DNA from: an uncultured Holophagaceae bacterium
Lineage (GTDB): Bacteria > Acidobacteriota > Holophagae > Holophagales > Holophagaceae
Assembly: GCA_903937385.1 (NCBI GenBank)
Contig: CAIZZF010000008.1
Coordinates: forward strand, 310,001 to 374,000
Direction: 5' to 3'
DNA: 64,000 bases
Under the pieces are notes generated by a model, which saw only the letters and a program-made list of their open reading frames with translations, was not told where the DNA came from and did not search any database. Both the position numbers and the translations under genes were made by a program. This document shows positions 4,840-61,490 of the stretch, one piece after another (positions within the stretch are counted from its first letter, which is position 1; every line of letters starts with the position of its first letter).

Positions 4840-5073
4840 CACCTAGCCTTTGATCAGGGGCCCCGGTTGGGGGGCGATGGTTGGCTGTTGGCTCGAAACG
4901 GGCCGCCAGGATTGAAGAGGTCCACCTCAACAATAAAGGCAGGATACGATCGTAGATCCAAGAATTTGAAGAACAATACGTTAAAGAACCTATGAAATCG
5001 GGCCCTCCGAAAACGGGATTCCCCCTGAACCTGGGCTCAGGACCTTCTCGCGATGACACCAGCCCGGCCTTGA
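4840..5073. other. Intergenic promoter region, AT-rich
   Basis: No gene is seen. Bases about 4925-4995 are distinctly AT-rich and probably hold the promoter for the minus-strand BNR protein. A perfect 10-bp palindrome TACGATCGTA lies at 4945-4954; its minus-strand half TACGAT could serve as a -10 box. No regulator can be assigned. Confidence 0.4.
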
Positions 5074-5079
5074 CGGAGC

Positions 5080-5427
5080 GTGCATGCCCCTCTGAGGCAG
5101 CGTCAGCAGGTCCGCTATCCCCTGATCGAGAGCGGGAACACCCTGAGGGTCACGGCAGGACAGGGCCTTCTCTATCAGATCACGACGACCAACCTGACCC
5201 AGTCCTTCGAAGCCAGCGGCCTTCCGGCCGGGATCACCGTCAATGCCCAGACGGGCGTCATCGGTGGCGTTCCACTCGAACCAGGCGCCTTCACCGTCGT
5301 GCTGAAAGCCTCCAACGCATCTGGGATGAACGTCGCCGAGCTGGCTCTGACAATCCTGGACAGCTCGGCCCGGGGCCCCCGTGGGGTTTCCTTGTCGGCT
5401 CCCCCTCCCGGGGTCAAAATGGAATGA
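5080..5427 (+). pseudogene. Orphan He_PIG/Ig-like domain fragment
   Basis: A 115-codon frame opening just after a TGA at 5071-5073. Residues about 12-92 match the He_PIG putative immunoglobulin-like domain of large bacterial surface proteins: LPAGITVNAQTGVIGGVP then PGAFTVVLKASNASG is the typical core. The only start candidate is GTG 5080 with no convincing ribosome binding site, and there is no signal peptide although this domain normally sits in exported multi-domain proteins. It is most likely the remnant of a larger gene whose 5' part is lost. A functional small protein cannot be excluded. It ends 51 bp before the GAPDH start. Confidence 0.45.
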
Positions 5428-5478
5428 GTGGATCGGATCACGGTTAAGTCATTGAATTCCATCAGGAGAGGGGCCCCC

Positions 5479-6921
5479 ATGAATCCATCGAAGCAGGATA
5501 CCTACCTCAAGGACTGGCAGGCACAGGAGGCCATGGCCGAGCAGATGCTGCCCGTCCTCGGCAGCCTCTACCGGGACAAGAACATCGTGATGACGGTGTA
5601 CGGCCGCTCCCTGATGCACTGCACGGCCATCGACATCCTCAAGGCCCACCGCTTCGCCCGGCAGATCCTCGACAACGAGCTGTCGGTGCTGGACTCCTGG
5701 CCCCTGTTGGACGCGATCAGCAAGCTGGAGCTGGCGCCGTCGCGCATCGACCTGGGCAAGCTGACCTTTCACTACTGCGCCGAGGGGGGCGGCCTATCCC
5801 CGGAGGCCTACGTGCTGCGCGAGCTGGCCAGCGTCCACACCGGCGTGAGCCCCATCCTGGACGAGCCCCAGGACATCGTGCTCTACGGCTTCGGCCGCAT
5901 CGGCCGCCTGCTGGCCCGCATTCTCATCGAGAAGGCCGGCAGCGGCGAGAAGTTCCGCCTCAAGGCCGCCGTCGTGCGCAAGGGCGCCGCCGATGACCTG
6001 CTCAAGCGCGCCAGCCTGCTGCGCCGCGACTCGGTCCACGGCCCCTTCAACGGCATCATCACCGTCGACGAGGAAGAGAACGCCATCATCGCCAACGGCA
6101 ACATGATCCGCATGATCTATGCGGACAGCCCCGAGAGCGTGGACTACACCCAGTACGGCATCCGGAACGCCATCCTGATCGACAACACCGGCAAGTGGCG
6201 CGACCGCGCCGGGCTGAGTCGGCACCTCCAGGCCAAGGGCATCGCCAAGGTCATCCTCACCGCACCGGGCAAGGGGGACATCCCCAACGTGGTGGCCGGG
6301 GTCAACGATGAGCTGATCACGGACCAGGAGCAGATCTTCTCCGCGGCCAGCTGCACCACCAACGCCATCGTGCCGGTGCTGAAGGCCCTCCATGACCGCT
6401 ACGGCATCTCCCATGGCCACATCGAGACCTGCCACTCCTACACCAACGACCAGAATTTGATCGACAACTACCACAAGGCCGCCCGGCGGGGCCGCAGTGC
6501 GCCGCTGAACATGGTCATCACCGAGACTGGCGCCGCCAAGGCCGTGGCCAAGGTCATCCCGGAGCTGGGTGGGAAGCTGACGGGCAACGCCATCCGGGTG
6601 CCGACCCCCAACGTGTCCCTGGCCATCCTCAACCTGGAGCTGAACCAGGCCGTGACCGTGGCGGACCTCAACAGCTACCTGCGCAGCATGTCCTTGGAGT
6701 CGCCCCTGCACAAGCAGATCGACTACACCAACTCCCCGGAAGTGGTCTCCAGCGACTTCGTCGGCTCCCGCCACGCGGGCGTGGTGGACTCCCTGGCCAC
6801 CATCGCCGAGGGCAACCGCATCGTCCTCTACGTCTGGTATGACAACGAGTTCGGCTACAGCTGCCAGGTGGTCCGCATGGTGCAGAGAATGGCCGGCATC
6901 GAGCTGCCGGCGCTACCCTAG
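5479..6921 (+). CDS. gap: Glyceraldehyde-3-phosphate dehydrogenase, long form
   Basis: 480 residues. Catalyses phosphorylating oxidation of glyceraldehyde-3-phosphate to 1,3-bisphosphoglycerate in glycolysis/gluconeogenesis. The NAD(P)-binding Rossmann motif YGFGRIGR is at 136-143, the catalytic motif SAASCTTNA places the nucleophile at Cys292, and the general-base His is His319 in CHSYTND. The C-terminal WYDNEFGYS motif is intact. The roughly 130-residue N-terminal extension before the Rossmann fold marks the long GAPDH class also found in Pseudomonas and Vibrio. Usual GAPDH has ASCTTNC; here the last Cys is Ala. The start at ATG 5479 follows AGGAGAGG; an in-frame GTG at 5428 would add 17 residues unlike the family. 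Cofactor preference and direction of use cannot be read from the sequence. Confidence 0.95.
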   Translation: MNPSKQDTYLKDWQAQEAMAEQMLPVLGSLYRDKNIVMTVYGRSLMHCTAIDILKAHRFARQILDNELSVLDSWPLLDAISKLELAPSRIDLGKLTFHYCAEGGGLSPEAYVLRELASVHTGVSPILDEPQDIVLYGFGRIGRLLARILIEKAGSGEKFRLKAAVVRKGAADDLLKRASLLRRDSVHGPFNGIITVDEEENAIIANGNMIRMIYADSPESVDYTQYGIRNAILIDNTGKWRDRAGLSRHLQAKGIAKVILTAPGKGDIPNVVAGVNDELITDQEQIFSAASCTTNAIVPVLKALHDRYGISHGHIETCHSYTNDQNLIDNYHKAARRGRSAPLNMVITETGAAKAVAKVIPELGGKLTGNAIRVPTPNVSLAILNLELNQAVTVADLNSYLRSMSLESPLHKQIDYTNSPEVVSSDFVGSRHAGVVDSLATIAEGNRIVLYVWYDNEFGYSCQVVRMVQRMAGIELPALP

Positions 6922-33969: not shown

Positions 33970-36192
33970 ATGACCCCTCACCGGCAGCATCCCCGCCCCG
34001 CCATCCGGCCCCTTAAGACCGGCCTCCCCTTCTTTGGCCTGGCCGCGTTCCTGCTGGCCTCGGGTCAGAGCCTCGTCGCGCAGGTGGCCTACGTGCCCCC
34101 TCCCCCGTCCACCTGGCAGTCCAGCCCCGTGCTCACCAAGTTCATGACGGAGCTGAGGGCTCCGGGCCAGATTCCCGTGGGCCTCCCGGATGGCATCCGG
34201 ACCTATCCAGGGAGCACGGTCGTCTCTGACCACTACACCATCGACATCAATCAATACATGGACAAGCTGCACCCGGCGCTCCCGGCCACCACGCTCTGGG
34301 GTTACCACCCCACGAAGACCCTGGGTGGCTTTCCGCAGGCGCATCTGGGCGGCATCCTCATTGCCCAACGGGGGAGGCCGACCCAGATCACCTTCCGCAA
34401 CAACCTGCCATCCAAGCACATCCTCCCGGTTGATAGCTCTATCCAGGGGGCCGACTCTACCGTGACCGAGAACCGCACCGCCACCCACCTGCATGGGGGC
34501 GCGGTGCCCTGGTTCAGTGATGGCGGCCCGTTCGGCTACTGGGATGCCAGTGGCCACAAGGGCATCAACTTCATCAACAATGAGGTACTCAATCCCGGCG
34601 CCGCCGGGCGCGAGGCCGAGTATTACTACCCGAACGACGCGAGCGCCCGCCTCATGTGGTACCACGACCACGCCATGGGCATCACACGGCTCAACGCCTA
34701 CGCCGGCATCGCCTCCGCCTACATCATCCGAGACCATTTCGAAGCCGGCCTGGTGAGGGATTTCGGCCTCCCCGGCTTCGTGGAGAACGGTGGCCGCGAG
34801 CTGCCCCTCGTCTTCCAGGACAAGATCTTCCAGAACGGCCGTGGGCCCAGCGACCCGAAGGCCCTCCCCTTCCCGGGGTCCGCCCAGGGCAAGGGGAACC
34901 TCTGGTATCCCTACGAGTACGACCTGGCCAGGTGGGACCGCGACCCCAGCGCGCCCAATCCCCTGCCTCCCACCTCCGTCGTGGCCGAGGCCTTCGGCGA
35001 CACCATGCTCGTCAACGGGAGTGCCTTCCCCAAGGCCACCGTGGATCCCCGGCGCTACCGCTTCCGGGTCCTCAACGCCTGCCAGGCCCGGGTCCTCAAC
35101 CTGCAGCTCTATGAGGACAATGGCCATGGTCAGCCGAACTTCAAGAAGCCTGGTCCGCATTGGACGGTGATCGGCACCGAGGGTGGGTTCCTCGCCAGAC
35201 CCGTGAACGTGCCCTCGGCGCCTCTGACAACCTTTGTGGATCCCTTGGCGGGTCGATATGTCGATCCGGCCGCCCCGGGCGGGAGCCTGATCGTGGCGAC
35301 CGGCGAGCGTTTCGACCTGGTGGTGGACTTCAACGGCAAGGCCGGCAAGAAGTACATCCTCTATAACGATGCCCCAGCCCCTTACCCCAACGGCGCCTTC
35401 ACCAACGACTATCCCAATGCCGCCGGCATCGGGGATACGTCGGTCCTCATGCGCTTCGAGGTCAAGGCGGACAGCAAGGCCATTCCCAAGGATGCTCCGT
35501 GGCTGCTCACGCCCTTCATGCCCATGGCTGGCAACCCTGATGCCAAGATCGATCCGCCCCTGGCAGGTCATCTGGCCGCCATGCCCACGCCGTTCCTGAG
35601 TTGGCTTACGGCCACCACCGCCCCCCTGCCCATTCCGACCCGCAAGGGGGTCACCGTGCGCCACCTGACGCTCAACGAGGGCTTCGACGCCAGCGGTCGC
35701 CTGATCCAGATGCTCGGGACCAACGTGGCGCCGAAGGCGGGAGACTTCTCCAGGCCCTACTTCGATCCTGCCGATCTCCCGCTCTCCGAGGCCACCGAGA
35801 CCCCTGCGGCGGGTGCGACTGAGGTCTGGGAGATTGCCAACCTGACGGGTGACACGCACCCAATCCATATCCATCTTGCCAATGCCCAGATCCTGTCCCG
35901 GCGGGTGTTTGATACCGTGGCCTATGCGAACACCACAGCTGGATCGCCCGCGGTTCCGACCTACTACCCGAACATTCCGGCCCGGGGTCCCGAGGCGACC
36001 GAACTCGGCTGGAAGGAGACCATCAAGATGCACCCCGGTGAGGTCACGACCGTGATCATGCAGTTCAACCTGCCCAAGGTGCCCTTCACCATCCCCGTCA
36101 GCCCCCGCACCGGCGGCCACGAGTATGTCTGGCACTGCCACATCCTCGAGCACGAAGAGCACGACATGATGCGCACCTTGGTGGTGAAGTAG
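33970..36192 (+). CDS. Multicopper oxidase 1 (CotA/bilirubin-oxidase type)
   Basis: 740 residues. Oxidises a substrate at a type-1 copper and reduces oxygen to water at a trinuclear cluster. All four copper motifs are present: THLHGG (His173, His175), WYHDHAMG (His232, His234), HPIHIH (His630, His633, His635) and WHCHILEHEEHDM (His722, Cys723, His724, His728, axial Met733). The N-terminus has a Sec-like signal (FFGLAAFLLASGQSLVAQ) without a twin-arginine motif, whereas many multicopper oxidases use Tat. The chain is about 200 residues longer than CotA, with insertions. Substrate unknown: metal ions, phenolics or pigments are all possible. A close paralogue lies at 38400. SD AGGAG precedes ATG 33970. 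Confidence 0.92.
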   Translation: MTPHRQHPRPAIRPLKTGLPFFGLAAFLLASGQSLVAQVAYVPPPPSTWQSSPVLTKFMTELRAPGQIPVGLPDGIRTYPGSTVVSDHYTIDINQYMDKLHPALPATTLWGYHPTKTLGGFPQAHLGGILIAQRGRPTQITFRNNLPSKHILPVDSSIQGADSTVTENRTATHLHGGAVPWFSDGGPFGYWDASGHKGINFINNEVLNPGAAGREAEYYYPNDASARLMWYHDHAMGITRLNAYAGIASAYIIRDHFEAGLVRDFGLPGFVENGGRELPLVFQDKIFQNGRGPSDPKALPFPGSAQGKGNLWYPYEYDLARWDRDPSAPNPLPPTSVVAEAFGDTMLVNGSAFPKATVDPRRYRFRVLNACQARVLNLQLYEDNGHGQPNFKKPGPHWTVIGTEGGFLARPVNVPSAPLTTFVDPLAGRYVDPAAPGGSLIVATGERFDLVVDFNGKAGKKYILYNDAPAPYPNGAFTNDYPNAAGIGDTSVLMRFEVKADSKAIPKDAPWLLTPFMPMAGNPDAKIDPPLAGHLAAMPTPFLSWLTATTAPLPIPTRKGVTVRHLTLNEGFDASGRLIQMLGTNVAPKAGDFSRPYFDPADLPLSEATETPAAGATEVWEIANLTGDTHPIHIHLANAQILSRRVFDTVAYANTTAGSPAVPTYYPNIPARGPEATELGWKETIKMHPGEVTTVIMQFNLPKVPFTIPVSPRTGGHEYVWHCHILEHEEHDMMRTLVVK

Positions 36193-36242
36193 CCCCAAGA
36201 GCCAGGCAAGCAGACAAAAAGAAGCGGGGGTGACCCCGCTTC
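36007..36242. repeat. Duplicated oxidase 3' end, copy 1
   Basis: These 236 bp align without gaps to 40455-40690, with about 14 differences by eye (about 94% identity). The segment covers the last about 60 codons of the oxidase, the stop codon and the 3' noncoding hairpin. Identity outside the coding part shows recent duplication or gene conversion. Confidence 0.85.
36212..36242 (-). terminator. Intrinsic terminator for the M2 peptidase gene
   Basis: GAAGCGGGG (36221-36229) pairs with CCCCGCTTC (36234-36242) over a 4-base loop. On the minus strand the stem is followed by TTTTTGTCT, a proper U-tract, so it terminates the M2 gene ending at 36261. For the plus-strand oxidase the hairpin lacks a T-tract. 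Confidence 0.75.
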
Positions 36243-36260
36243 CTGCGTTTCAGCGCCCGC

Positions 36261-38027
36261 TCACCAACCGATCTGGCGGCCCTTGTTCTGCGTCTCGAGC
36301 CAGGCCATGAGGGGCTTGAAGTAATCCATCATGGCGCGGGTGGAGAGGTCCTCGCCCGTGGCGCCCATGAGCACCGTGCGCCAGTCCTCGGTGGCCCCCT
36401 TGGCCAGGATCTGCTTCAGGAAGGCGCCCACTTCCTTGTGACCGGCGTAGTTGGTGCTGCGGGGATCCTGGTGGAGGATCTTCCGGGCGATGTGATCATG
36501 CACCTGGAACTTGAAGACCGTGGCCCAGCCGTAGCCGTAGTAGTAGGCGGGATTGTCGTTGATGTGGGTCTTGGTGGGGGCGTCGCAGAACTGCTCCCCG
36601 CGTGGGGCCGGGGGTTCCACGCCCTGCAGGTCCCGGACCTGCTGCCACCAGCGGGCGTTCATCTCCGCGGCGGGCATGCCCTTGGCGTAGAAGTCGGCCT
36701 CCCACTCGGGCATGGTGCCGCAGGCCCAGAACATGAAGGGGATCGCCACCTCCAGGGCGTCGTTCAGCAGCACCTGCATCTCATCCACCTTGTAGTCGGC
36801 AGGCAGCACGCCGGCAGACTTGAGATAGGGAATCTGACGGGTGGCCAGGGCGATGAGCTCGCCCACGCCCTCGTGGAAGCTGGGGTTGGCGCCGTCCCGG
36901 AGCAGGGGCGGCACGGCAGGGTTCGTGTAGCTCATGAAGTAGTAGCCGTGGCCCAGCTCGTGGTGGACCGTCTCGAACCACTGGGCATTGGGCTCGACGC
37001 TCATCAGTGAGCGGATGTCCGTGTCCAGGTCCAGGTGCCAGCAGGAGGCGTGGCTGTTCTTCTTGCGGGCCTCGCCGGGCTTCACCGGATAGAGGTCGGA
37101 CTTGGCCCAGAAGGAGGCTGGCAGGGGCGCAAAGCCGAGTCCCGTGTAGAAGGCCTCGGCAGTCTTGACAACGCGCTCAGGTTGCCAGCCCTTGAAGTAG
37201 GGGTCGAAGTCCACGGCCTGCACGAAGCCGGTCCAGTTCTGGCTCCAGCGGTTGTTGATCCAGTGCGCGGGGATGGCCTTGGGCACGGGCTGGCCGTAAT
37301 TCTTGGCCATCTCGTACTTCACCCAGGTGTGCAGCTGGAGGTAGAGGGGCTTCAGCTCCGCCAGGAACTTGCGGTTGAAGGCCATCATCTCGTCCGTGCT
37401 GAGGCCGTACTTGGCCACCTGCAGCGCGAAGTAGTCGGGGTAGCCCAGCTCCCGGGCACAACCGTTCCGCAGGTCGCGCAGCCGCAGCAGGCCTTCCTTC
37501 AGCACGGGGCCGCTCTCCTTAGAGACCTCCCACACCCGGCGCCGCTCGGCCAGGTCGGCGCTCTTGGCCAGAATCTCGTCGATGCGGTTCGCGGAGAGGG
37601 GCTGGCCATCCAGCTTCCAGACATAGCCGTTCATGCGGCTGGCCTGGGCAGTCTCCGCCGCGATGCGATCAGCCACCAGCCGGGGGTTGGTCATGGGACC
37701 TTCGGCGGCGTTGAGCAGCACCCGCTCCAGCTGCCGCACGGTGAGGTCCTTGAGCTCCTTCCGGTGCGCCAGCAGCTCCCGGGCCTCGGTGATGAGGGCC
37801 GGATTGCCGTTGAAGGCTGCGGCGGCCCGGCCCGCCCACTCGGCGGCGGCATCATTCTCCGGCTTCACATCCGTGGAGGCGGCCCAGGTGGCCTCGGAGG
37901 AAACAGTGTAGAGGGACTGGTAGCCGGCGTTCACGACCTTCAGGAAGCGGTCGGCGCGGTCCTGCAGGGGAGCTGTCATCTGTGCCAGGAGGGGCACACC
38001 GAGGATCAGGGCGGGAAGCAGGCGCAT
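36261..38027 (-). CDS. M2-family metallopeptidase (bacterial ACE-like peptidyl-dipeptidase)
   Basis: 588 residues with signal peptide MRLLPALILGVPLLAQ. Zinc dicarboxypeptidase related to angiotensin-converting enzyme, releasing C-terminal dipeptides. The zinc motif VHHELGHGYYF gives His356-Glu357-x-x-His360, and the third ligand Glu386 is in GANPSFHEGVGEL, the arrangement of M2 enzymes (two residues longer between motifs than in human ACE). YYYGYGWATVFKFQ near the C-terminus is also typical. It is exported, presumably periplasmic. It is convergent with multicopper oxidase 1 and divergent from multicopper oxidase 2. No strong SD is visible before ATG 38027; the signal peptide decides the start. 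Confidence 0.93.
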   Translation of the reverse strand: MRLLPALILGVPLLAQMTAPLQDRADRFLKVVNAGYQSLYTVSSEATWAASTDVKPENDAAAEWAGRAAAAFNGNPALITEARELLAHRKELKDLTVRQLERVLLNAAEGPMTNPRLVADRIAAETAQASRMNGYVWKLDGQPLSANRIDEILAKSADLAERRRVWEVSKESGPVLKEGLLRLRDLRNGCARELGYPDYFALQVAKYGLSTDEMMAFNRKFLAELKPLYLQLHTWVKYEMAKNYGQPVPKAIPAHWINNRWSQNWTGFVQAVDFDPYFKGWQPERVVKTAEAFYTGLGFAPLPASFWAKSDLYPVKPGEARKKNSHASCWHLDLDTDIRSLMSVEPNAQWFETVHHELGHGYYFMSYTNPAVPPLLRDGANPSFHEGVGELIALATRQIPYLKSAGVLPADYKVDEMQVLLNDALEVAIPFMFWACGTMPEWEADFYAKGMPAAEMNARWWQQVRDLQGVEPPAPRGEQFCDAPTKTHINDNPAYYYGYGWATVFKFQVHDHIARKILHQDPRSTNYAGHKEVGAFLKQILAKGATEDWRTVLMGATGEDLSTRAMMDYFKPLMAWLETQNKGRQIGW

Positions 38028-38399
38028 GGGAGCTCCGGGAACCCATCATTCTCCCGCCGGACGGGGGCCTGGCCCAGCTTCATTTGGCTGTTTGGCCACG
38101 AGAGAAGGGGGTTCTGGGAGTTCACCACCGGCTCGGCCCGCTGAGCCCGACTTCACATGGGCAGGTTCCCTGACCTCTGGGTCATTTTTCAAACAACTCT
38201 CATAAATAGACTTTATGAGCCCGTTGGATTCCAGAGCCCAGGACATCAATACAGACCCAACCATTCCAGCACGTAGTAATACCTATGGATTACTACTAAT
38301 TGTTGAAACACCTATTAATTCCTAGGCTTTTAGATGTACCTGGTTTGCCAACTGCGGGGTCCCCGCTGCTCAACGTTTGTCACCTTGGAGTTTCACCCC
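38028..38399. other. Divergent intergenic region, M2 peptidase / multicopper oxidase 2
   Basis: 372 bp without a gene. The half nearer the oxidase (about 38190-38340) is clearly AT-rich and should hold its promoter. It also contains the inverted repeat reported separately at 38273-38296. An in-frame ATG at 38334 precedes the chosen oxidase start but would add 22 residues before the signal peptide. Confidence 0.5.
38273..38296. promoter_or_regulatory. Candidate operator upstream of multicopper oxidase 2
   Basis: GTAGTAAT (38273-38280) and ATTACTAC (38289-38296) form a perfect 8-bp inverted repeat with an 8-bp spacer, 104 bp upstream of the oxidase start in an AT-rich patch. No such repeat stands upstream of oxidase 1, so the paralogues may be regulated differently. 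Confidence 0.45.
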
Positions 38400-40640
38400 A
38401 TGAATAACAACCTGTCTCAGCCTGCCCTCTTCTCCCGGTCCTTCCAGTCCGGTCTTCCCTTCCTCGGCCTGGCCGCCCTTCTGCTGGCCTCGGGTCACAG
38501 CCTCGAGGCGCAGGGAGCCTACGTGCCCCCGCCCCCGTCCACCTGGCAGTCCAGCCCGGTGCTGACCAAGTTCATGACCGAGCTCCGGGCTCCAGGGCTG
38601 ATCCCCGTGGCGCAACCGGACGGCACCCGCCGCTTCACGGGCAGCACCCTCACCGCCAATCACTACACCATTGAGATCAACCAGTTCAAGGACCAGCTGC
38701 ACCCCAGCCTGCCGCCAACCACCCTCTGGGGCTACAACCCAACCTTGGCCCTGGGCGTGGCGCCCAGTGCCATCGTGCCGCAGAAGCACCTGGGCGGCAT
38801 CATCATCGCCCAGAAGGGGGTCCCCACCCAGATCACCTTCCGCAACAACCTGCCCGACAAGCACATCCTCCCTGTGGACACCAGCATCCAGGGCTCGGAT
38901 CCCAGTGTGACCCAGAACCGCACCAGCACCCACCTCCACGGCGGGCTGGTGCCCTGGTTCAGCGACGGCGGCCCCTTCGCCTTCTTTGACCGCATCGGCA
39001 ACAAGGGGGTCAGCTTCGTGCAGAACGCGGTGCTGCGCCCCCTGGAGACTGCGGCGAAGACGGTGCCTGTGAACGAGGCCGAGTACTACTACCCCAACAA
39101 CCAGAGCGCCCGCCTGATGTGGTACCACGACCACGCCATGGGCATCACCCGCCTGAACGCCTACGCCGGCGTGGCCTCTGCCTACATCATCCGGGACTAC
39201 TACGAGTCCACCCTGGTGCGTGACTTCGGGCTGCCCGCCTTCGTGGAAAACGGTGGCCGCGAGCTGCCTCTCATCTTCCAGGACAAGATCTTCCAGAACG
39301 GCAGCGGACCCAGCGATCCGACCGCCCTCCCCTTCCCGGGCTCCGCCCAGGGCCGTGGCAACCTCTGGTACCCCTACGAGTATGATTCGAACCCCTGGAA
39401 CACCAGCACGGCTCCCTCCGTGTCCGTGGTGCCCGAGGCCTTCGGCGACACCCTGCTGGTCAACGGCGCTGCCTATCCCAAGGCCACCGTGGATCCCCGC
39501 CGCTACCGCCTGCGCGTCCTCAATGCCTGCAATGCCCGGGTGCTGAACCTGGCCCTCTTCGAAGACAACGGCGCCGGCCAGCCGGACTTCACCAAGCCCG
39601 GCCCCGCCTGGACGGTCATCGGCACCGAGGGCGGCTTCCTGGCCCGCCCGGTGAGCGTGCCCCAGGCCAATCTGATCACCCTGACGGATGCCGGTGGCGG
39701 CCGCTATGTGAACCCCGCGGCCCCAGGTGGCAGCCTGATCGTCGCCCCCGCCGAGCGCCTGGATCTGGTGCTCGACCTCAACGGCAAGGGCGGCAAGAAG
39801 TACATCCTCTACAACAATGCCCCCGGGCCCTACCCCAACGGCGCTCCCGAGAACGACTATCCCAACGCGCTTGGCATCGGTGACACCTCCATCCTCATGC
39901 GCTTCGAGGTCAAGCTGGACGCCAAGACCATGGCCAAGGACCTGCCCTCGAAGCTCGTCCCCGCCACCCCCCTGGCCGGGGACTCCAACTCTCTGATGGA
40001 CCTGCCCCTGGCTGGTTCGGTGGCCTCCACGGTCGTCAGCAAGCTGAGCTGGAACACCACCACCAGCGCCCCCCTGCCCATCCCCACCCGCAAGGGCATC
40101 GTGGTCCGCCAGCTGACCCTGAACGAAGCTGTCGACCTCAACAACCGCCTCATCCAGATGCTCGGCACCAACGTCGCAGGCCCCACCGGGGACTTCGGCC
40201 GCCCCTACTATGACCCCAAGGATCCGGCTGGTTCCCTCGCCACCGAGACGCCCATCAACGGCGGCACTGAGGTCTGGCAGATCGCCAACCTCACCGGGGA
40301 CACCCACCCGATCCACTTCCACCTAGCCAATGCCCAGATCCTCTCCCGCCAGGCATTCGACACCGTCGCCTACATGGCCACGCCCCTCGGCACGCCCGCG
40401 GTCCCGGTCTACAACCCCGCCTACCCCGCGCGCGGCCCCGAAGCCACCGAGGTGGGCTGGAAGGAGACCGTCAAGATGCATCCCGGTGAGGTCACGACCG
40501 TGATCATGCAGTTCAACCTGCCCCAGGTACCCTTCAAGATCCCCGTCAGCCCCCGCACCGGCGGCCACGAATACGTGTGGCACTGCCACATCCTCGAGCA
40601 TGAGGAGCACGACATGATGCGCACCTTGGTGGTGAAGTAG
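38400..40640 (+). CDS. Multicopper oxidase 2 (CotA/bilirubin-oxidase type)
   Basis: 746 residues, a close paralogue of the oxidase at 33970 across its whole length, with the same APG- and PPPPSTWQSSP-rich start of the mature protein. Copper ligands: THLHGG (His178, His180), WYHDHAMG (His243, His245), HPIHFH (His636, His639, His641) and WHCHILEHEEHDM (His728, Cys729, His730, His734, axial Met739). Sec-type signal LPFLGLAALLLASGHSLEAQ; no twin-arginine pair. The start at ATG 38400 follows TTGGAGTTTCACCCC. Compared with copy 1 it has extra residues before HDH (VLRPLETAAKTVPVNEAEYY). The substrate is unknown; the two may differ in expression more than in chemistry. Confidence 0.92.
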   Translation: MNNNLSQPALFSRSFQSGLPFLGLAALLLASGHSLEAQGAYVPPPPSTWQSSPVLTKFMTELRAPGLIPVAQPDGTRRFTGSTLTANHYTIEINQFKDQLHPSLPPTTLWGYNPTLALGVAPSAIVPQKHLGGIIIAQKGVPTQITFRNNLPDKHILPVDTSIQGSDPSVTQNRTSTHLHGGLVPWFSDGGPFAFFDRIGNKGVSFVQNAVLRPLETAAKTVPVNEAEYYYPNNQSARLMWYHDHAMGITRLNAYAGVASAYIIRDYYESTLVRDFGLPAFVENGGRELPLIFQDKIFQNGSGPSDPTALPFPGSAQGRGNLWYPYEYDSNPWNTSTAPSVSVVPEAFGDTLLVNGAAYPKATVDPRRYRLRVLNACNARVLNLALFEDNGAGQPDFTKPGPAWTVIGTEGGFLARPVSVPQANLITLTDAGGGRYVNPAAPGGSLIVAPAERLDLVLDLNGKGGKKYILYNNAPGPYPNGAPENDYPNALGIGDTSILMRFEVKLDAKTMAKDLPSKLVPATPLAGDSNSLMDLPLAGSVASTVVSKLSWNTTTSAPLPIPTRKGIVVRQLTLNEAVDLNNRLIQMLGTNVAGPTGDFGRPYYDPKDPAGSLATETPINGGTEVWQIANLTGDTHPIHFHLANAQILSRQAFDTVAYMATPLGTPAVPVYNPAYPARGPEATEVGWKETVKMHPGEVTTVIMQFNLPQVPFKIPVSPRTGGHEYVWHCHILEHEEHDMMRTLVVK

Positions 40641-43654: not shown

Positions 43655-46390
43655 TCAGTGACGCTTCCAGAGGTCGAAGGGCTGCGTTCCGATCAGGAAG
43701 TTGAAGGTGCCGACGGTCCGGCCACTCTCCTGGGGGGTGTGCAGCTTGAGGAAGCCATAGGCCAGCTCTACGTAGAAATTGGAGAGCGCCGTACGCAGCA
43801 TGAGACCCGCCCCCTGGCCCCGGGGCGAGACGCTACCGTCCCACAGGGTGGACCTACTCTGGGACACCCAGGCCAGGTCGAAGCGGGGGGCCAGCTCCAC
43901 CGTGAGGCCCAGCCCCAGGTAGAAGCGGAAGGGGATGCCGAAGCGGAGCGCCGCGAAGTTCGGGACCATGAAGCCCATGGACCGGGAGCCGATGACGAAG
44001 GAAGGCCCCCCCACCACCCACCAGCGGTCCAGGGGCAGGTTCCGGCCCTGACCCCACTCCACGTCCAGGTCGGCCCCCACGAGGTCGCCGAAGGTCGTAA
44101 GGCCTCGGACCCGGAAGTAGCTCTGCAGGAAGTCTGCGGCCGGCAGCGGCCCCTCGTAAGCATGGCCCGCCCCGAAGCGGGCGCGGACCAGCAGCCCCTC
44201 TCGGGGGAGGGTGCGCCGGTCGAAGTTGTCCCACTCGCCCGACAGGAAGAACGCGTCCTGGGTCTGGGTGGCGCGCTGGCCGTCCTCCCGATAGGCCGCG
44301 TTGCGACGACTCAGGTCCAGACTTACCTTGCCGGTGCCCAGGTTGCTGAACCGGAAGTAGGTCTTCACCATCAAGTCGGAGGCGCTGATGCGGGCATCCA
44401 GGCCGTTGCCCGGCAGCTCCGGCGTCCGCCAGTAGAGCGGCACATCCAGGCGCTGCTGCCAGTAGGCCGCGTCGAACTCGATGCCGGTGCCCGGTGAGAA
44501 GCCGAAGGGGCTCTGCAGACTCAGCGAGGCCTGCTCCTGCAGGCGGTTCCGGTCCCCGCTCAGCACCAGCTCCGTGCCCTTGAAGCCCAGGTCCACGGCC
44601 CGGTAGGCCAGGCCCAGGGTGCCCCCCAAGGTGGACTCGTAGCCCAGGGAGAGGTCGAGGCGCTCCCGCTGCTGGAGTACGGGCACCAGCGTGAGGGCCA
44701 GGCCGTCAGTCCCCTCGGGCCGGATCTGGTAGCGCAGCTCCGCGAGGTGCAGGCGGTGCTCGGCCAGGGCGATGCGACTCTGGAGCAGGGTGGGCCGGAA
44801 GGGGCGACCCTTCAGGGGTCCGAGCAGTTCCAGGAGCTGGGCCTCATCCTGCGCCATGCCCGGGGCTCTTCGCACCTCAACCTTAGCTACCAGCGGCTCC
44901 CGGAGAACGATGTGGACCTTCCCGGTGGCGGGGTCGAAGCGGGAGCCCCGCGCGTCCATGAGCGGCTGGCCCTCCATGACGCACTGGAAGACCAGCTGCG
45001 CCATGAGGCGGCCGAAGGACTCGGGGTTGAAGGGCTCTCCCACCGGGATTGCGGTCTCCGCCAGCTCCAGGATGTAGGCGCGCCAGAGCTCGGGCACCGA
45101 GGTCTCCACGGCCGCGATGGCCGGGAAGGGCCGCAGGTGGACCGTGAGCACCCGGTCGGGGTCCACCGTGATCCAGGCTTCCCGGGCCTGGCCATGGACC
45201 AGGATCTGCTGCAGGAGGATCTGGGCGTCCTGCACACGGATGCCGTCCTTGCCGGACTGCAGCGCCTCCGCCAGGATCAACGCCACCGGAGAGCTCAAGC
45301 CGCCGGGCACCTCCACGGCCACCCGGGCGATGTCCAGCCGCTCCTGGTCCAGGCGGGTTCGGAGCAGGCTGTCCAGGGCATCCCGCCGGGCTTCGAAGGC
45401 CTCCCGCCCCTGCCGCACCAGCTTGGAGCCATGGGTTCCATATTCCAGGAAGGGGACATCCTTGATTTCGGGGCGGATCAGGAAGTCCGCCGCAGCGCGA
45501 CTCTCCCACTGGCGCCGCTCCACCACCAGGTCCAGGCTGCGCGCCGCCACCGAAAAGATGTTCAAGGAGGGACGCCGCTCCAGCGGCGCGCTGGTGTCGA
45601 TGCCGATGACCAGGTCCGGGTGGAAGGCCTCCTTGGCCGTGGTCACGGGCAGGTTCTCCACCAGGGCGCCGTCCACATACTGCTGGCCCTCGATGACCAC
45701 GGGCCGGAAGCCGCCGGGAATGGACATGGAGGCGCGCACCGCCTCCACCAGGTCGCCGCGGTCGAAGACCCGCCCCTGGCCCGTCTCCAGGTTGGTGGCC
45801 AGCACCCGCAGGGGGCGCTGAAGCCGGTTGAAGTCCCCGCCGGAGAAGTAGGCGCCGCGGGCCAGCAGCCCCTGCAGGGTGTGCTGCATCTCCACCCCGC
45901 TGCGCAGGGCCTGGGCCAGGCTCAAGCGACCCGAGTGGCGCTCGATGGAGAGGAAGGGGGCGCTGCGGTCCTCCTGCTCCTCGAGCGTCTCGCCGGGGTT
46001 CCGCAAGAGGGGCTCGAGAAAGGCGCGGGTGAGGTCCAGGCGGCTGAACAGATCTTCCACCTCGCGCCCAGAGAACCCGCTGGCGTAGAGGGCGCCCACC
46101 AGGGCCCCGGCGCTGGTGCCCGTGAGGCTGTCCAGGGGATAGCCCACTTCCTCCAGGCGCTGGAGGACCCCGATGTGCGCCAGGCCCCGGGCGCCACCGC
46201 CGCTCAGGGCCACTGCCACCCGGGGCATGCCCGGGATGACCACCCGGGGCATAAACCGGAACACCATGTCCGGCGCCTGCAGGGTCACCTCGATGCGCCG
46301 GGGCGTCGCAGCCTTGTCCGGTGCTGCCGTCGGCATGCCCTGGCCCGCCAACAGGGCAGGCAGGGCCGCTGCCAGCAGCAGGGCTCTCAT
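43655..46390 (-). CDS. Patatin-like phospholipase with POTRA/barrel C-terminus (type Vd-like)
   Basis: 911 residues with signal peptide MRALLLAAALPALLAGQ. The patatin domain (about 57-330) has the oxyanion loop GGGARG (64-69), nucleophile Ser93 in GTSAG and Asp240 in VDGALVENLP, a complete Ser-Asp dyad. It is followed by a POTRA-like region and, from about residue 560, a bacterial surface antigen (Omp85/TamA-like) beta-barrel ending in a Phe/Trp-rich strand. This matches type Vd autotransporters such as PlpD of Pseudomonas, in which the lipase is exported through its own barrel. It is longer than PlpD (728 residues, from memory). The start overlaps the rph stop (ATGA). Confidence 0.88.
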   Translation of the reverse strand: MRALLLAAALPALLAGQGMPTAAPDKAATPRRIEVTLQAPDMVFRFMPRVVIPGMPRVAVALSGGGARGLAHIGVLQRLEEVGYPLDSLTGTSAGALVGALYASGFSGREVEDLFSRLDLTRAFLEPLLRNPGETLEEQEDRSAPFLSIERHSGRLSLAQALRSGVEMQHTLQGLLARGAYFSGGDFNRLQRPLRVLATNLETGQGRVFDRGDLVEAVRASMSIPGGFRPVVIEGQQYVDGALVENLPVTTAKEAFHPDLVIGIDTSAPLERRPSLNIFSVAARSLDLVVERRQWESRAAADFLIRPEIKDVPFLEYGTHGSKLVRQGREAFEARRDALDSLLRTRLDQERLDIARVAVEVPGGLSSPVALILAEALQSGKDGIRVQDAQILLQQILVHGQAREAWITVDPDRVLTVHLRPFPAIAAVETSVPELWRAYILELAETAIPVGEPFNPESFGRLMAQLVFQCVMEGQPLMDARGSRFDPATGKVHIVLREPLVAKVEVRRAPGMAQDEAQLLELLGPLKGRPFRPTLLQSRIALAEHRLHLAELRYQIRPEGTDGLALTLVPVLQQRERLDLSLGYESTLGGTLGLAYRAVDLGFKGTELVLSGDRNRLQEQASLSLQSPFGFSPGTGIEFDAAYWQQRLDVPLYWRTPELPGNGLDARISASDLMVKTYFRFSNLGTGKVSLDLSRRNAAYREDGQRATQTQDAFFLSGEWDNFDRRTLPREGLLVRARFGAGHAYEGPLPAADFLQSYFRVRGLTTFGDLVGADLDVEWGQGRNLPLDRWWVVGGPSFVIGSRSMGFMVPNFAALRFGIPFRFYLGLGLTVELAPRFDLAWVSQSRSTLWDGSVSPRGQGAGLMLRTALSNFYVELAYGFLKLHTPQESGRTVGTFNFLIGTQPFDLWKRH

Positions 46391-52430: not shown

Positions 52431-53147
52431 CTACGCCAGCCCCAGCCTCGCCTTGAAGGCGGGCGCGGCGCCTCGGCTCACTTCGAGCTCGACGTTGCCG
52501 GTGAGACGCACGAGGAGGCGGCCGGACTCGCCGGCACGCAGACCCACCACGGCCTCGGGGCGGATCAGCAGGTGGCGGTGCCCGCGCACGACGCGGTCGC
52601 CCAGGGCCTGCTCGGCCTCGGCCAGGGTCTTCCAGGTGGTACGCAGGGGCTCGCCCAAGAAGGCCCACACGGCGCCGTCCTCGAAGCTGAAGTGGGTGAT
52701 CTTCGCCAGGTCCGCCAGCACCAGGCCCTCGCCCGCCTTCACGGGAACACGGAAGGGACCCGCGGGCCGGGCCGGGTCGCGCTGGGCCGGGGCGCGCAGG
52801 CGTTGCAGGGTGGCGGCCAGCCGCTCGGCGGTGACGGGCTTCAACAGGTAGTCCGTGGCGGCCTGCTCGAAGGCCCGCACGGCGTGCTCGGCATAGGCCG
52901 TCACGAACACCACGGGAATCTCATGGGCCAGCTCCGCCGCCAGGTCCAGGCCCGTGAGCCCGGGCATCTGGATGTCGAGGAACAGCGCGTCCACGGGCTC
53001 GCCCTGGGCCAGCCACGCCAGCACCGAAGGGCCGTCCTCCAGCTCCGCCACAACCTCGCAGCCTGCCTCCCGCAGCAGCCGCGTCAGGCGACGGAGGTTG
53101 AAGGGCTCATCCTCGGCCACCAGCACGCGCAGGACCTGGCCGCTCAT
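52431..53147 (-). CDS. LytTR-family response regulator
   Basis: 238 residues. Receiver domain about 6-120 with AEDEPFNLRR, phospho-acceptor Asp58 in LFLDIQMPG, and KP at ATDYLLKPVTAE. The C-terminal LytTR DNA-binding domain (about 135-232) has FEDGAVWAFLGEPLRTTWKTL and LIRPEAVVGLRAGESGRLLV. Transcription factor of the LytR/AlgR class, controlled by the adjacent kinase. The start overlaps the kinase stop by 4 bp (ATGA). Its targets are unknown; the Spy-like gene at the head of the same operon is a natural candidate. Confidence 0.92.
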   Translation of the reverse strand: MSGQVLRVLVAEDEPFNLRRLTRLLREAGCEVVAELEDGPSVLAWLAQGEPVDALFLDIQMPGLTGLDLAAELAHEIPVVFVTAYAEHAVRAFEQAATDYLLKPVTAERLAATLQRLRAPAQRDPARPAGPFRVPVKAGEGLVLADLAKITHFSFEDGAVWAFLGEPLRTTWKTLAEAEQALGDRVVRGHRHLLIRPEAVVGLRAGESGRLLVRLTGNVELEVSRGAAPAFKARLGLA

Positions 53148-54280
53148 GCGGGCACCTCGAGCCTCAGCTCGGCGATGGTCCAGTCGCCCTCGCGGGTGAG
53201 CTGCAGCGCGTCCGCCGGAGCGCCCTGCAGGCGGAGCCGCTCGCGCAGGTTCTTCAGGCCGATGCCCGTGCCCTCGCCCGCCGCCGGGGCCGGCCCGGTG
53301 TTGGCGACACGCACCCGGAGCAGGTTGGCCTCCCGGGAGATGCGCACGTCCAGGCTGCCGCCACCCACGGCCACAGAGACGCCGTGCTTGAGGGCGTTCT
53401 CCACCAGGGGCTGCACCATCAAAGGCGGGATCTCCAGCGCGTCGAGGGCCTCGGGCCAGTCCCAGGTTTCCCGGAGGCGGTGCCCCAAACGGAGCCGCTC
53501 CAAAGCCAGATGGTGTTCCACCAGGCGGCGCTCATCGCCCAGGGGCGCCCGCAATCGGGAGCCGTGCTCCAGCAGGGCGCGCAGCAGGTCCGACAGGCTG
53601 ACCAGGGCGCGCTCTGCCGCCACGGGGTCCTCGCGCACCAGCTCCGTGAGGGCGCTGATGGCGTTGAACAGCACGTGGGGATTCATCTGGCCCTGCAGGG
53701 CCCGGGCCTTGGCCTCGTCCGCCGCCTGCTGCGCGGCCGTTGCCTGCAGTTCGGCCCGCTCGCGTCCCGCCAGAATCCAGCCCAGCAGCAGCCCGAAGGA
53801 GAAGTGCGCCAGGCCCAGCAGCCAGAGCCGGGGGTGGATCGCCAGCCAGCGAGCCTCCTCCGGGGGCGGGCGCAGGCCGCGGTGCATAGGGCCGCGCTCC
53901 ATCATGCTCATGCCTGGGCCCATGCCTGGCCCCATGCCGGGCACCATGCCCCGGCCGGGCAGCGCCTGGGGGGCGACCGCGCCCAGGAGCAGCAGAATGC
54001 CCAGGGTCAGCGCGGCCATCCAGGGCAGGGCCTGGGCGGCCCCGCGCAGCACGCCGGCCATGGGCGCTTCATCGCCGGTCCACTGCCAGGGCAGCGGCAC
54101 CAGCACCATGAAAAGCGCCACCCAGAGGACTGGCACCAGGGCCTCGACCAGGCCCGGCTCTGGGCCGCCCAGGAGCATCCGGGCGCCATTCCAGACCAGG
54201 CCGAACAGCAGTGCGGCGCCCCAGGTTCGGGGGCGCCGCAGCTGCTGGAAGGTGGTGTGCAGGACCGCAGAAGCGCGCAT
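53144..54280 (-). CDS. LytS/YehU-type sensor histidine kinase with periplasmic Met-rich loop
   Basis: 378 residues. Four transmembrane helices (about 21-38, 46-64, 84-104, 151-171) precede a His_kinase domain with phospho-acceptor His202 in QMNPHVLFNAI and an ATPase region (VQPLVENALKHGV, GTGIGLKNLRERL). By topology the loop between helices 3 and 4 (about 105-150) is periplasmic. Its part 111-132 has Met every few residues (GMVPGMGPGMGPGMSMMERG), a pattern seen in copper- and silver-binding proteins. The Spy-like protein next door has a similar Met/Gly/His tail, so the kinase may sense metal or metal-loaded Spy. That is inference. Start ATG 54280; SD weak. Confidence 0.9.
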   Translation of the reverse strand: MRASAVLHTTFQQLRRPRTWGAALLFGLVWNGARMLLGGPEPGLVEALVPVLWVALFMVLVPLPWQWTGDEAPMAGVLRGAAQALPWMAALTLGILLLLGAVAPQALPGRGMVPGMGPGMGPGMSMMERGPMHRGLRPPPEEARWLAIHPRLWLLGLAHFSFGLLLGWILAGRERAELQATAAQQAADEAKARALQGQMNPHVLFNAISALTELVREDPVAAERALVSLSDLLRALLEHGSRLRAPLGDERRLVEHHLALERLRLGHRLRETWDWPEALDALEIPPLMVQPLVENALKHGVSVAVGGGSLDVRISREANLLRVRVANTGPAPAAGEGTGIGLKNLRERLRLQGAPADALQLTREGDWTIAELRLEVPA

Positions 54281-54303
54281 GGACTGTCAGGATACCGGGC
54301 TCG

Positions 54304-54840
54304 TCAGGGCTTCGCGGGGGGGCAGTCGTGGCCCATCATGCCGGGGCCACCGGGGCCGCGCCCCATGCCCATGCCGCCCTTGCCATGACGGCCCATGCCA
54401 CGCTCGCCGCCAGGGCCCATGCCCCTGGGGCCCTTCTGGAACTTGGCCTTCTGCTCTGCGGTCAGGAGGGGCAGGATCTCCTGCTGCACGGCCCGGTGCT
54501 CGAGCATCATCTCGAACTGCGCTGCGGAGGCCTTGTCGTGCAGGGTCCGCAGAGCCTGGGCATCGGTGGCGGCATCCGCCATGGCGGTGCGCATGGCTTC
54601 GTGGGCGGCCTGGGCGGCCTCGCCCTTGGCCTTGATGGCGGCCTGGTGGCGCTCATGGATGGCCTTCACCTTGGTCTGCTGGTCCTCGGTGAGGTTCAGT
54701 CCCCGGAGACCGGGGCCCTGCTGGGCGCCGGGGCCACGGCCAGGAGCACAGCCAGGGCCACGGCCTTGGGCTGAAAGGGATGCGCCGATGGCCAGCATGG
54801 CCACGGTGAGGGCGGCAAAGCGAAGGGGGTGGGTGCTCAT
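54304..54840 (-). CDS. Spy/CpxP-like periplasmic protein with Met/Gly-rich tail
   Basis: 178 residues, signal peptide MSTHPLRFAALTVAMLAIGA ending near residue 24 (SLSAQ). Two LTxxQ-type motifs, LTEDQ (50-54) and LTAEQ (126-130), and the intervening helices match the Spy/CpxP family of periplasmic chaperone or stress proteins. The C-terminus (139-171) is Gly/Met/His-rich (GMGRHGKGGMGMGRGPGG) with single Cys at 31 and 173, resembling metal-binding tails such as those of CusF- or ZraP-like proteins. It begins the operon with the kinase 23 bp downstream. Start ATG 54840 has AGGAG upstream. Metal binding is inferred from composition. Confidence 0.87.
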   Translation of the reverse strand: MSTHPLRFAALTVAMLAIGASLSAQGRGPGCAPGRGPGAQQGPGLRGLNLTEDQQTKVKAIHERHQAAIKAKGEAAQAAHEAMRTAMADAATDAQALRTLHDKASAAQFEMMLEHRAVQQEILPLLTAEQKAKFQKGPRGMGPGGERGMGRHGKGGMGMGRGPGGPGMMGHDCPPAKP

Positions 54841-54997
54841 GGGTGACTCCTGGGTGGGGGGCGGGCTGTCCGTCCACACCAGGAGATACCCCTTCGCAGG
54901 GTTTGGTGCACCCGGCTCGATGGATGACACCTGCGGGGCATCGAATGACAGCCGCGGGGGGACGAATGGCGGCCCTTCCCGGGGGTTTCCGGGCCGG

Positions 54998-57966: not shown

Positions 57967-60900
57967 TTACATGTTTCTCCGGTACTGCCCGCCCACCTCG
58001 TAGAGGGCCTGGCTGATCTGGCCCAGGCTGCAGACCTTGGCGGCGTTCAGCAGCTCCTCGAAGAGGTTGCCACCGGCGCGGGCCACTTCCTTGAGGCGCA
58101 GGAGGGCCGCCGGGGCCACATCGGCATTCCGGGCGTGGAAGGCCGCCAGGTTGTCGATCTGCTGCTGCTTCTCGGCCTCGGTGCTGCGGATCAGCTCCGG
58201 AGCGCCCAGCTCGGGGGGCTGGGGATTCAGGAAGGTGTTCACGCCGACGATGGGCAGCTCCCCGCTGTGCTTGAGGTGCTCGTAGTGCATGGACTCTTCC
58301 TGGATCTTGCCGCGCTGATACATGGTCTCCATGGCGCCCAGCACGCCGCCGCGGTCGCTGATGCGACGGAACTCGGCCAGCACAGCCTCCTCCACCAGCT
58401 CCGTGAGCTGCTCGATGAGGAAGGCGCCCTGCTGCGGGTTCTCGTTCTTCGCCTGGCCCAGCTCGCGGTTGATGATGAGCTGGATGGCGATGGCCCGGCG
58501 CACGCTCTCTTCGGTCGGCGTCGTGATGGCCTCGTCGTAGGCGTTGGTGTGCAGGCTGTTGCAGTTGTCATAGATGGCGTAGAGGGCCTGCAGGGTCGTG
58601 CGGATGTCGTTGAAGTCGATCTCCTGGGCGTGCAGGGAGCGGCCGCTGGTCTGGATGTGGTACTTGAGCTTCTGGCTGCGGTCGTTGGCGCCGTACTTCT
58701 CCTTCATGGCGATCGCCCAGATGCGGCGTGCCACGCGGCCGATGACACTATATTCCGCGTCGAGGCCGTTGCTGAAGAAGAAGCTGAGGTTCGGCGCAAA
58801 GTCGTCGATGTGCATGCCCCGGGAGAGGTAGTACTCGACGAAGGTGAAGCCGTTGGCCAGTGTGAAGGCCAGCTGGCTGATGGGGTTCGCGCCGGCCTCG
58901 GCGATGTGGTAGCCGCTGATGCTCACGGAGTAGAAGTTGCGAATCTTCTCCTCGATGAAGGTGGACTGGATGTCGCCCATGACCTTGAGGCTGAACTCCG
59001 TGCTGAAGATGCAGGTGTTCTGGGCCTGGTCTTCCTTGAGGATGTCGGCCTGCACCGTGCCGCGCACGGTCTGGAGGGCCTCCATGCGCAGCTTGGCGTA
59101 GACCTCCGGCGGCAGCACCTCGTCGGCGGTGGCGCCCAGCAGGGCGAGACCAAGGCCGAGGTTCCCCTCGGGCATCGTCTCCCCGTAGCGCGGGCGGGCC
59201 ATGCCCTTGGCCTTGTACTTGGCGTCGATCTTGGCCTGGGCGGCCTCCAGCTGGCCGTGCTCCGCCAGCCAGGCCTCGGCGCGCTGGTCGATGGCCGCGT
59301 TCAGGAAGAAGGCCAGCACCGTGGGGGCGGGGCCGTTCACGGTCATGCTCACGCTGGAGGAGGGGCAGAGCAGGTCGAAGCCCGAGTAGAGCTTCTTCGC
59401 GTCGTCCACGGTGCACACCGAGACGCCGCTGTTGCCGATTTTGCCGTAGATGTCGGGGCGGACATGGGGGTCCTCACCATAGAGGGTCACGCTGTCGAAG
59501 GCGGTGCTGAGCCGCACGGCGGGCTGGCCCTTGCTCACGAAGTGGAACCGCTTGTTGGTCCGCTCGGGTGTGCCCTCGCCCGCGAACATGCGGGTCGGAT
59601 CCTCGCCCACCCGCTTGTACTCGAAGACGCCGGAGACGTAGGGGAAGAAGCCGGGCAGGTTCTCCAGCAGCTGCCAGCGCAGCAGCTCACCCCAGCCCGA
59701 GTAGGACGGCAGGGCCACCTTGGGGATCATGGAGCCACTGAGGGACGCCGTGTAGTTGGCGGTGCGGATCTCGCGGCCACGCACCACGTAGACATTCTCG
59801 GGCTCGGTGTAGCTGCGCTTGACCTCGGCCCAGTCGTGGATGAGGCGGCGGCTCTCGCCGTGCAGCTCGCCCAGGTGCTCCTGGTAGCGCTGTCGGAGCA
59901 GGAGCACGGCGGCCCCCTGGTCGCCCTCGCCGGGTTCCACCAGGTGGATGGCGTCGTAGAAGGCGCCGGCGGCCGGCACCTTGTCGCCCAGGGCGCGGAG
60001 GCTGGCCCAGAGGGCGTGGCAGAGCTCTGCGGTCTCGGCCTGCCGGCGGGCCCAGGCCTTGTAGCCCTGAACGGTGTCGGCGATCTCGGCCAGGTAGCGC
60101 ACGCGCTCCGGGGGGATGATGGCCGAGCGGCGGGGGTTGCCGGGTGCGGCCTCGAGCCGGGGCACCCAGTCCACGCTGGTCTTGGTGGCGATGGCCTTCA
60201 CCAGGTTCACGAAGAGCCAGTTGGTGGCGGGATCGTTGAACTGGCTGGCGCAGGTGGCATAGACGGGCATGTCATCGGCGGGCTCGGAGAAGCGCTTGTG
60301 GGCCCGCTGGTACTGCTTGCGCACGTCGCGCAGGGCATCCTCGGCGCCGCGCTTGTCGGCCTTGTTCAGCACCACCACATCGGCGAAGTCCAGCATGTCG
60401 ATCTTCTCGAGCTGGCTGGCGGCGCCGTATTCCGGCGTCATCACATACATGGCCAGATCCACCAGGTCCGCGATCTCGCTGTCGCTCTGGCCGATGCCCG
60501 CGGTCTCCACGATCACCAGGTCGTAGCCCGCGTCCTTGGCGGCCAGGATGCTGGCGGCCAGGGCCTCGCTGGTCGCCCGGTGGGCGGCGCTGCGGGTGGC
60601 AAGGCTGCGCATGAACACGCGGTCTCGCAGCTCCGGATGGTAGAGCGTGTTCATGCGGATGCGGTCACCCAGCAGGGCGCCGCCGGTCTTGCGCTTGGAG
60701 GGGTCCACGCTGAGCACCGCCACCTGCATGTCTGGGAAGTCCACCAGGAAGCGGCGCAGCAGCTCATCGATGAGCGAGGACTTGCCGGCGCCGCCCGTGC
60801 CGGTGATGCCGAGGACCGGGATGGTCCGGGTGGGCTGACTCGGGGGCGTGGCCACGGCCTCGCCGAGCTCGATCTGGGTGATCCGCCGGGCCAGGGTGTG

Positions 60901-61389
60901 GAACTCGGGCGTGGTCCGGGGATCCACGTCGCAGCGCTGCACCATGTCGTCGATCATGCCCTGGAGGCCCATGTGGCGGCCGTCCTCGGGGCTGTAGATC
61001 CGCGCGACGCCGTAGGCCTGCAGCTCCTGGATCTCCTCCGGGGAGATGACGCCGCCGCCGCCGCCGAAGATCTGGATGTGGCCAGCGCCGCGCTCGCGCA
61101 GCAGGTCCACCATGTACTTGAAGTACTCCACGTGGCCGCCCTGGTAGCTGGAGAGGGCGATGCCCTGGGCATCTTCCTGGATGGCGGTGTCGACGATGTC
61201 CTGCACGGCGCGGTTGTGGCCCAGGTGGATGACCTCGCAGCCGGTGGCCTGCAGGATGCGTCGCATGATGTTGATGCTGGCGTCGTGGCCGTCGAAGAGG
61301 CTGGCGGCAGTGACGAAGCGCACCTTGTGCTTCGGGACATAGCCCTCCCGGGGGAGAGACTCGAGCTCGGGTACGGCAGGCGTGGGCAT
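57967..61389 (-). CDS. icmF: Fused isobutyryl-CoA mutase
   Basis: 1140 residues. Adenosylcobalamin enzyme that interconverts isobutyryl-CoA and n-butyryl-CoA; some IcmF also act on isovaleryl/pivalyl-CoA. Domain order: B12-binding domain (about 22-150) with DGHDASIN (His35 as cobalt ligand) and [11 protein letters not shown]-protein chaperone with P-loop GTGGAGKSS (Lys203) and [12 protein letters not shown]; linker; and large mutase domain (about 560-1130) with [18 protein letters not shown]. The order matches IcmF, not methylmalonyl-CoA mutase. The substrate-deciding residues were not aligned, so isobutyryl specificity rests on architecture. AAGGGGGG precedes ATG 61389. No cobalamin riboswitch is evident. 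With the acyl-CoA operon it supports branched-chain acyl-CoA catabolism. Confidence 0.93.
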
Positions 61390-61490
61390 GGATTCCCCCC
61401 TTATCGGACGAACCCCTAGTCTAACGGCCATCGGCTCCAGTATGAGCTTCTGTTCATTGGAGTTTCAGAGCGTCTGACAGTGCCCTGAAG

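Follow-up and report, generated by a model that had tools for sequence, protein, structure and literature searches.

What a Spy/CpxP-like exported protein does beside a LytS-type sensor kinase and a LytTR response regulator, and what such a combination would sense, is the question raised by three genes at 52431-54840 of the window, a 64,000-nucleotide stretch of DNA from an uncultured Holophagaceae bacterium. A preliminary description of this DNA had read them as three minus-strand genes with a 23-bp and an overlapping junction, and this layout is confirmed, as both the coordinates and the Pfam domains agree with it (Table 1): a gap of 23 bp separates the Spy-like gene from the kinase gene, which overlaps the regulator gene by 4 bp (ATGA). 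No metal transporter was found among the neighbouring genes that we examined.

Table 1. Features of the Spy-kinase-regulator cassette and of the region upstream of it, in window coordinates.
Feature	Position	Strand	Remarks
Spy/CpxP-like exported protein gene	54304..54840	-	178 aa; Pfam LTXXQ 9.4e-11 and Metal_resist 1.1e-10, both above cut-off
LytS-type sensor histidine kinase gene	53144..54280	-	378 aa; PF06580 (His_kinase) 3.8e-16
LytTR response regulator gene	52431..53147	-	238 aa, BtsR-like; Response_reg 1.2e-23, LytTR 2.7e-8
Met/Gly-rich disordered tail of the Spy-like protein	54307..54432	-	residues 137-178; 6 Met; Cys 173 in a DCP motif
Met/Gly/Pro-rich kinase loop between helices 3 and 4	53837..53971	-	residues 104-148; predicted periplasmic and disordered
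Operator box 1, CGCCATTCG	54963..54971	-	putative, from conservation
Operator box 2, TGTCATTCG	54942..54950	-	putative, from conservation
Operator box 3, TGTCATCCA	54921..54929	-	putative, from conservation
Conserved element, TATCTCCTGGTGTGGACGGA...CCGCC	54860..54888	-	near-invariant in orthologues; probable -10 region and transcript start

Two LTxxQ-type motifs (LNLTEDQ and LLTAEQ), the LTXXQ domain and a Spy fold place the exported protein in the Spy/CpxP family, with scores below the NCBIfam equivalog cut-offs for Spy (45.7 bits vs 174) and CpxP (26.9 vs 160). In its structure model the core is helical and confidently predicted, and the tail is disordered (pLDDT below 50). CpxP, Spy and CnrX were the top Foldseek matches, with weak E-values (7e-3 at best) at a probability of 1.0, and a profile search against solved structures again found Spy and CpxP to be the closest. 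Histidines 62, 65, 101 and 115 of the core are retained in 83-90% of the aligned sequences. The pairing of a PF06580 kinase with a REC-LytTR regulator assigns the other two proteins to the LytS/LytTR class of two-component systems. In the kinase, PWQW, H202 and ENAxKHG are invariant alignment columns and the HATPase_c match lies just under the Pfam cut-off; no Pfam match to the 5TMR-LYT sensor domain of LytS/BtsS-type kinases was obtained, four membrane helices being present instead. The best NCBIfam match of the regulator is BtsR, at a score below the BtsR cut-off; it is a LytTR protein and not the OmpR- or NtrC-type regulator of the CpxAR, ZraSR or CusRS systems. The AlphaFold model of the kinase presents the four membrane helices followed by a long helix into the kinase domain, with a disordered loop (residues 102-147, pLDDT below 50) between helices 3 and 4. 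Hydropathy agrees with this arrangement; the periplasmic location that the preliminary description had given the loop is itself a prediction.

The same arrangement recurs in the family. Counting its own, 27 genomes encode a full-length relative of the kinase at an identity of about 50% or more, and the locus has named relatives in Geothrix campi, G. limicola, G. paludis, G. oryzisoli, G. terrae, G. fuzhouensis and G. fermentans. Inspection of 30 further Holophagaceae loci found the Spy-kinase-regulator order in each, with the 4-bp overlap of kinase and regulator in 30/30 and a gap of 11-40 bp after the Spy-like gene. Members from genus g16 carry the Spy-like gene either upstream (L245-L248) or downstream of kinase and regulator (L251, L253, L254), and Spy adjacency to the kinase extends to two further genera, with a different gene order in some loci. 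For the phylum as a whole, we took 80 loci from the matches of a Spy-profile search of Acidobacteriota and sought LytTR neighbours by tblastn, a search that could miss very diverged LytTR proteins. Such neighbours accompany three of the 80 Spy-like loci (L139, L142 and L143), which belong to other Holophagaceae genera, whereas no LytTR match was obtained for the 67 loci outside the family, in line with the earlier view that LytS/LytTR partners are unusual for Spy-like genes. One locus from another family (L174) does have a kinase of LytS type, at the edge of the stretch and about 2.6 kb from its Spy-like gene, and a second, orphan Spy-like gene in the source genome (L131) is without LytS/LytTR neighbours. 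The Spy-LytS-LytTR module is therefore real and conserved and, as far as sampled within Acidobacteriota, confined to Holophagaceae; no description of the arrangement was found in the papers searched. The version of the cassette on a contig labelled Methylococcales (L060, QVQF01000139.1) is clearly a Holophagaceae one; the contig is probably misbinned.

The upstream region suggests how the module would be controlled. A search upstream of 54840 for direct repeats, as expected for a LytTR regulator acting on its own operon, had been suggested, and orthologues indeed carry three of them (TGYCATTCG type, consensus TGCCATTCG) at exact 21-bp steps before the Spy gene. An anchored alignment of 26 orthologues contains three conserved boxes, its column autocorrelation has a sole peak at lag 21 (0.115 vs at most 0.017 elsewhere), and the triple-repeat score lies above that of 200/200 shuffles. 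Published LytTR sites consist of two repeats of 9-11 nt with spacers of 11-13 nt (PMC4847170); the 9-mers and 12-nt spacers found here match these dimensions, in three copies and not two. The box before the Spy gene is similar to GGCATTTCAT, the motif to which YpdB binds (PMC4847170). The cassette thus shares kinase and regulator classes and a direct-repeat operator with BtsS-BtsR and YpdA-YpdB, but differs from them in its third repeat, in having no 5TMR-LYT domain, in its exported Spy partner and in that the target found is its own operon. In the orthologues, box 3 stands at a fixed distance before a near-invariant element whose only perfect match in the source genome is this one, and which is the probable promoter -10 region and start of the transcript; the fixed distance is consistent with an activator site. 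When the regulon was sought by pattern searches, the three-box pattern gave 39 sites in 46 genomes of the genus, and the reversed-pattern control one match in all. Each of the 13 sites with 0-1 mismatch is a Spy promoter, and sites with two mismatches include other places; in the source genome the Spy promoter is the only three-box site. Since all of the closest sites are Spy promoters, the module most likely regulates itself, with weaker targets possible elsewhere. Conservation thus upholds the operator, at which the regulator would bind and activate its own operon.

At 33970-40640, an ACE-like M2 peptidase gene of the minus strand lies between two plus-strand multicopper oxidase genes, which had been put forward as further targets at a distance of about 15 kb. 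Both oxidase genes are present, some 12 and 16 kb away from the cassette, but the operator is absent from both: within 300 bp upstream of either there is neither a triple nor a close double repeat, and we rejected them as targets of the cassette. Elsewhere in the window we noted a patatin-like phospholipase with an Omp85-like C-terminal part (43655-46390, type Vd-like) and a protein fusing B12-binding, MeaB-like and mutase parts, as in IcmF (57967-61431).

The signal itself has to be approached through the kinase loop and the tail of the Spy-like protein, whose richness in methionine exceeds chance. Of the 24 kinase residues 109-132, 7 are Met (binomial P 5.7e-7 for one window, against a Met background of 2.2%), and the 33 residues 139-171 of the Spy-like protein hold 6 Met, 16 Gly and 2 His, with 5 Met in the best 24-residue window (P 1.5e-4). 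Both segments had been singled out in the preliminary description and both stand out among the 20 genes checked in the window, none of the others having more than 4 Met in 24 residues. Across orthologues, the lengths and Met numbers of loop and tail differ widely. Kinase Met 126 and Met 127 are common to 18/27 and 21/27 orthologues, and tail Met 141 and Met 169 to 23/27 and 22/27; the other Met of the window's loop and tail are not widely shared. The idea of a conserved Met spacing in the loop consequently fails, in number as well as in spacing, and the orthologue alignment lacks the regularity expected of a Met-motif copper-binding protein.

What the two segments do share is composition. Using independent contrasts on the kinase tree, the Met fraction of the loop correlates with that of the tail (r about 0.52, p=0.004, first set; r=0.55, p=3e-4, extended set of 38), and the same method found no covariation of loop Met with the Gly-rich N-terminal linker of the Spy-like protein. 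Met make up 0.154 of the loop residues where the tail has a Cys and 0.054 where it has none; contrasts of tail Cys against loop Met, with six changes on the tree, give r=0.69 (p=1.6e-6), and r=0.78 within the main clade. This test was post hoc, made after data inspection, and contrasts are approximate for a yes/no trait. Among the several residues tested, Pro and Arg show weak covariation, and His weak or none. Met of the loop follows Met of the Spy-like core as well (r=0.58) and, to a weak degree, Met of the remaining kinase sequence (r=0.26-0.42), such that part of the covariation may be general. Taken as a whole, the pattern suggests a coupling between tail and loop by way of soft sulfur ligands; given the matching Met amounts and the tail Cys, a common soft ligand or direct contact between the two is probable. 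A His-based signal (Zn, Ni or Co) is less favoured, as His covaries weakly or not at all. The ZraP-ZraS-ZraR and CnrX-CnrY-CnrH systems are similar in that a Spy/CnrX-fold protein feeds a metal-linked signalling system, but the present cassette has no NtrC-type regulator or sigma factor, and it is sulfur ligands, not His, that covary.

The reading that we prefer, tentatively and with rather less than even confidence, is that of a self-regulated three-gene envelope-sensing operon of Holophagaceae, in which the kinase would monitor the periplasm through its short disordered loop, the Spy-like protein would be its periplasmic partner, and a soft metal is the most likely signal. In this model, the kinase would be held inactive by free Spy, in the way that CpxP acts on CpxA, and set free once Spy is loaded with metal or occupied by a client; the coupling of tail and loop is supported statistically, and the two may touch. 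The likeliest trigger would be Cu(I), Ag(I) or a similar soft metal ion, or else the damage that such an ion causes. Two points make a soft metal our first choice among single signals: the residues that covary are sulfur ligands, and Geothrix is able to dominate cultures amended with Cu, as a relative of Geothrix fermentans did in a Cu(II)-amended enrichment (PMC10946571). Sensing of copper or silver by the kinase, as the preliminary description had proposed, is possible. A stricter version, in which the Met/Cys tail and the Met loop would bind the metal jointly as a split sensor and drive a LytTR regulator that acts mainly on its own operon, seems to us unlikely. The closest parallel is CpxP-CpxA-CpxR, which likewise joins a Spy-fold periplasmic partner to a sensor kinase and a regulator in a self-regulated envelope response, but the present cassette has a four-helix kinase of PF06580 type and a LytTR regulator in place of an OmpR-type one.

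That parallel also underlies an alternative that we consider somewhat improbable, in which Spy would bind unfolded periplasmic proteins and so leave the kinase, the Met-rich stretches being low-complexity spacers that drift. The nearness of the Spy-like fold and sequence to CpxP and Spy fits such a misfolding sensor, as do the varying length and composition of the loops, the occurrence of Met-free versions and of paralogues with proline-rich loops, and the extension of some covariation to the Spy-like core. Spacer drift, however, predicts no covariation with a Cys in another protein, nor does it predict that covariation should be absent from the N-terminal linker. Among the Met-free versions, a Spy-linked kinase (L241) has no Met in either loop or tail, and another such kinase (L067) none in the loop; where the tail is Met-free, Met is likewise absent or almost absent from the loops of L241 and L254, but the L248 loop bears Met despite its Met-free tail.

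The sulfur residues could alternatively report their own oxidation, with reactive oxygen or chlorine species oxidising tail and loop Met and thereby triggering the kinase, and Spy acting as chaperone and sacrificial antioxidant. The Met of E. coli Spy are oxidised under chlorite and repaired by MsrPQ (PMC12503329), tail Cys covaries with loop Met, and the source genome encodes a fused MsrB-MsrA (L260, 1333-2391) whose N-terminus carries a hydrophobic, export-like segment. On the other hand, an MsrP-type enzyme (PF00174) was not found in that genome, and G. fermentans has been characterised as strictly anaerobic (PMC10946571). Locus L139 (G160, reverse strand 1696-5585) speaks both ways: a di-haem cytochrome c peroxidase gene (CCP_MauG) leads the Spy-like, kinase and regulator genes and is preceded by the triple-repeat operator, yet this peroxidase-linked version is Met-free in loop and tail. 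We judge a methionine-oxidation sensor to be doubtful.

Kinases with the PWQW membrane region form a paralogous family whose members, some with proline-rich loops, adjoin different exported proteins: an EF-hand protein (L069), a PKD/Lcl_C protein (L066, in the source genome), a protein with PKD and, by eye, a phosphoesterase-like part (L068), a YaiO-like barrel (L063; L064 is similar) and the Spy-like proteins. In L066 (G000:C8:239552-240988) the kinase has a long Pro/Arg/Glu-rich loop, and its gene lies immediately after the exported PKD/Lcl_C gene and before a LytTR regulator gene. In L069 (reverse strand 4151-5840) the EF-hand gene is directly upstream of the kinase gene, and the pair is a candidate calcium-linked sensor. 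These unrelated partners (EF-hand, PKD/Lcl_C, YaiO-like barrel), and an operator that drives Spy first, would suit a kinase that senses a membrane or small-molecule signal, as other LytS-type kinases do, with Spy as simply a target gene. We think this decidedly unlikely, as it is at odds with the loop-tail covariation and with Spy adjacency in two further genera, where some loci have another gene order. From the Met-free versions and the related kinases with other exported partners it does follow that the architecture does not require a metal signal.

If our preferred reading of a self-regulated envelope-sensing operon is true, the cassette would join the accessory-protein principle of Spy and CpxP to the LytS/LytTR class, in which the signal is known for a minority of members, and it provides both a concrete candidate operator and two disordered, sulfur-rich segments. 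With a common membrane region and differing loops and exported partners, the Holophagaceae kinases furthermore constitute a natural series for the acquisition of signals.
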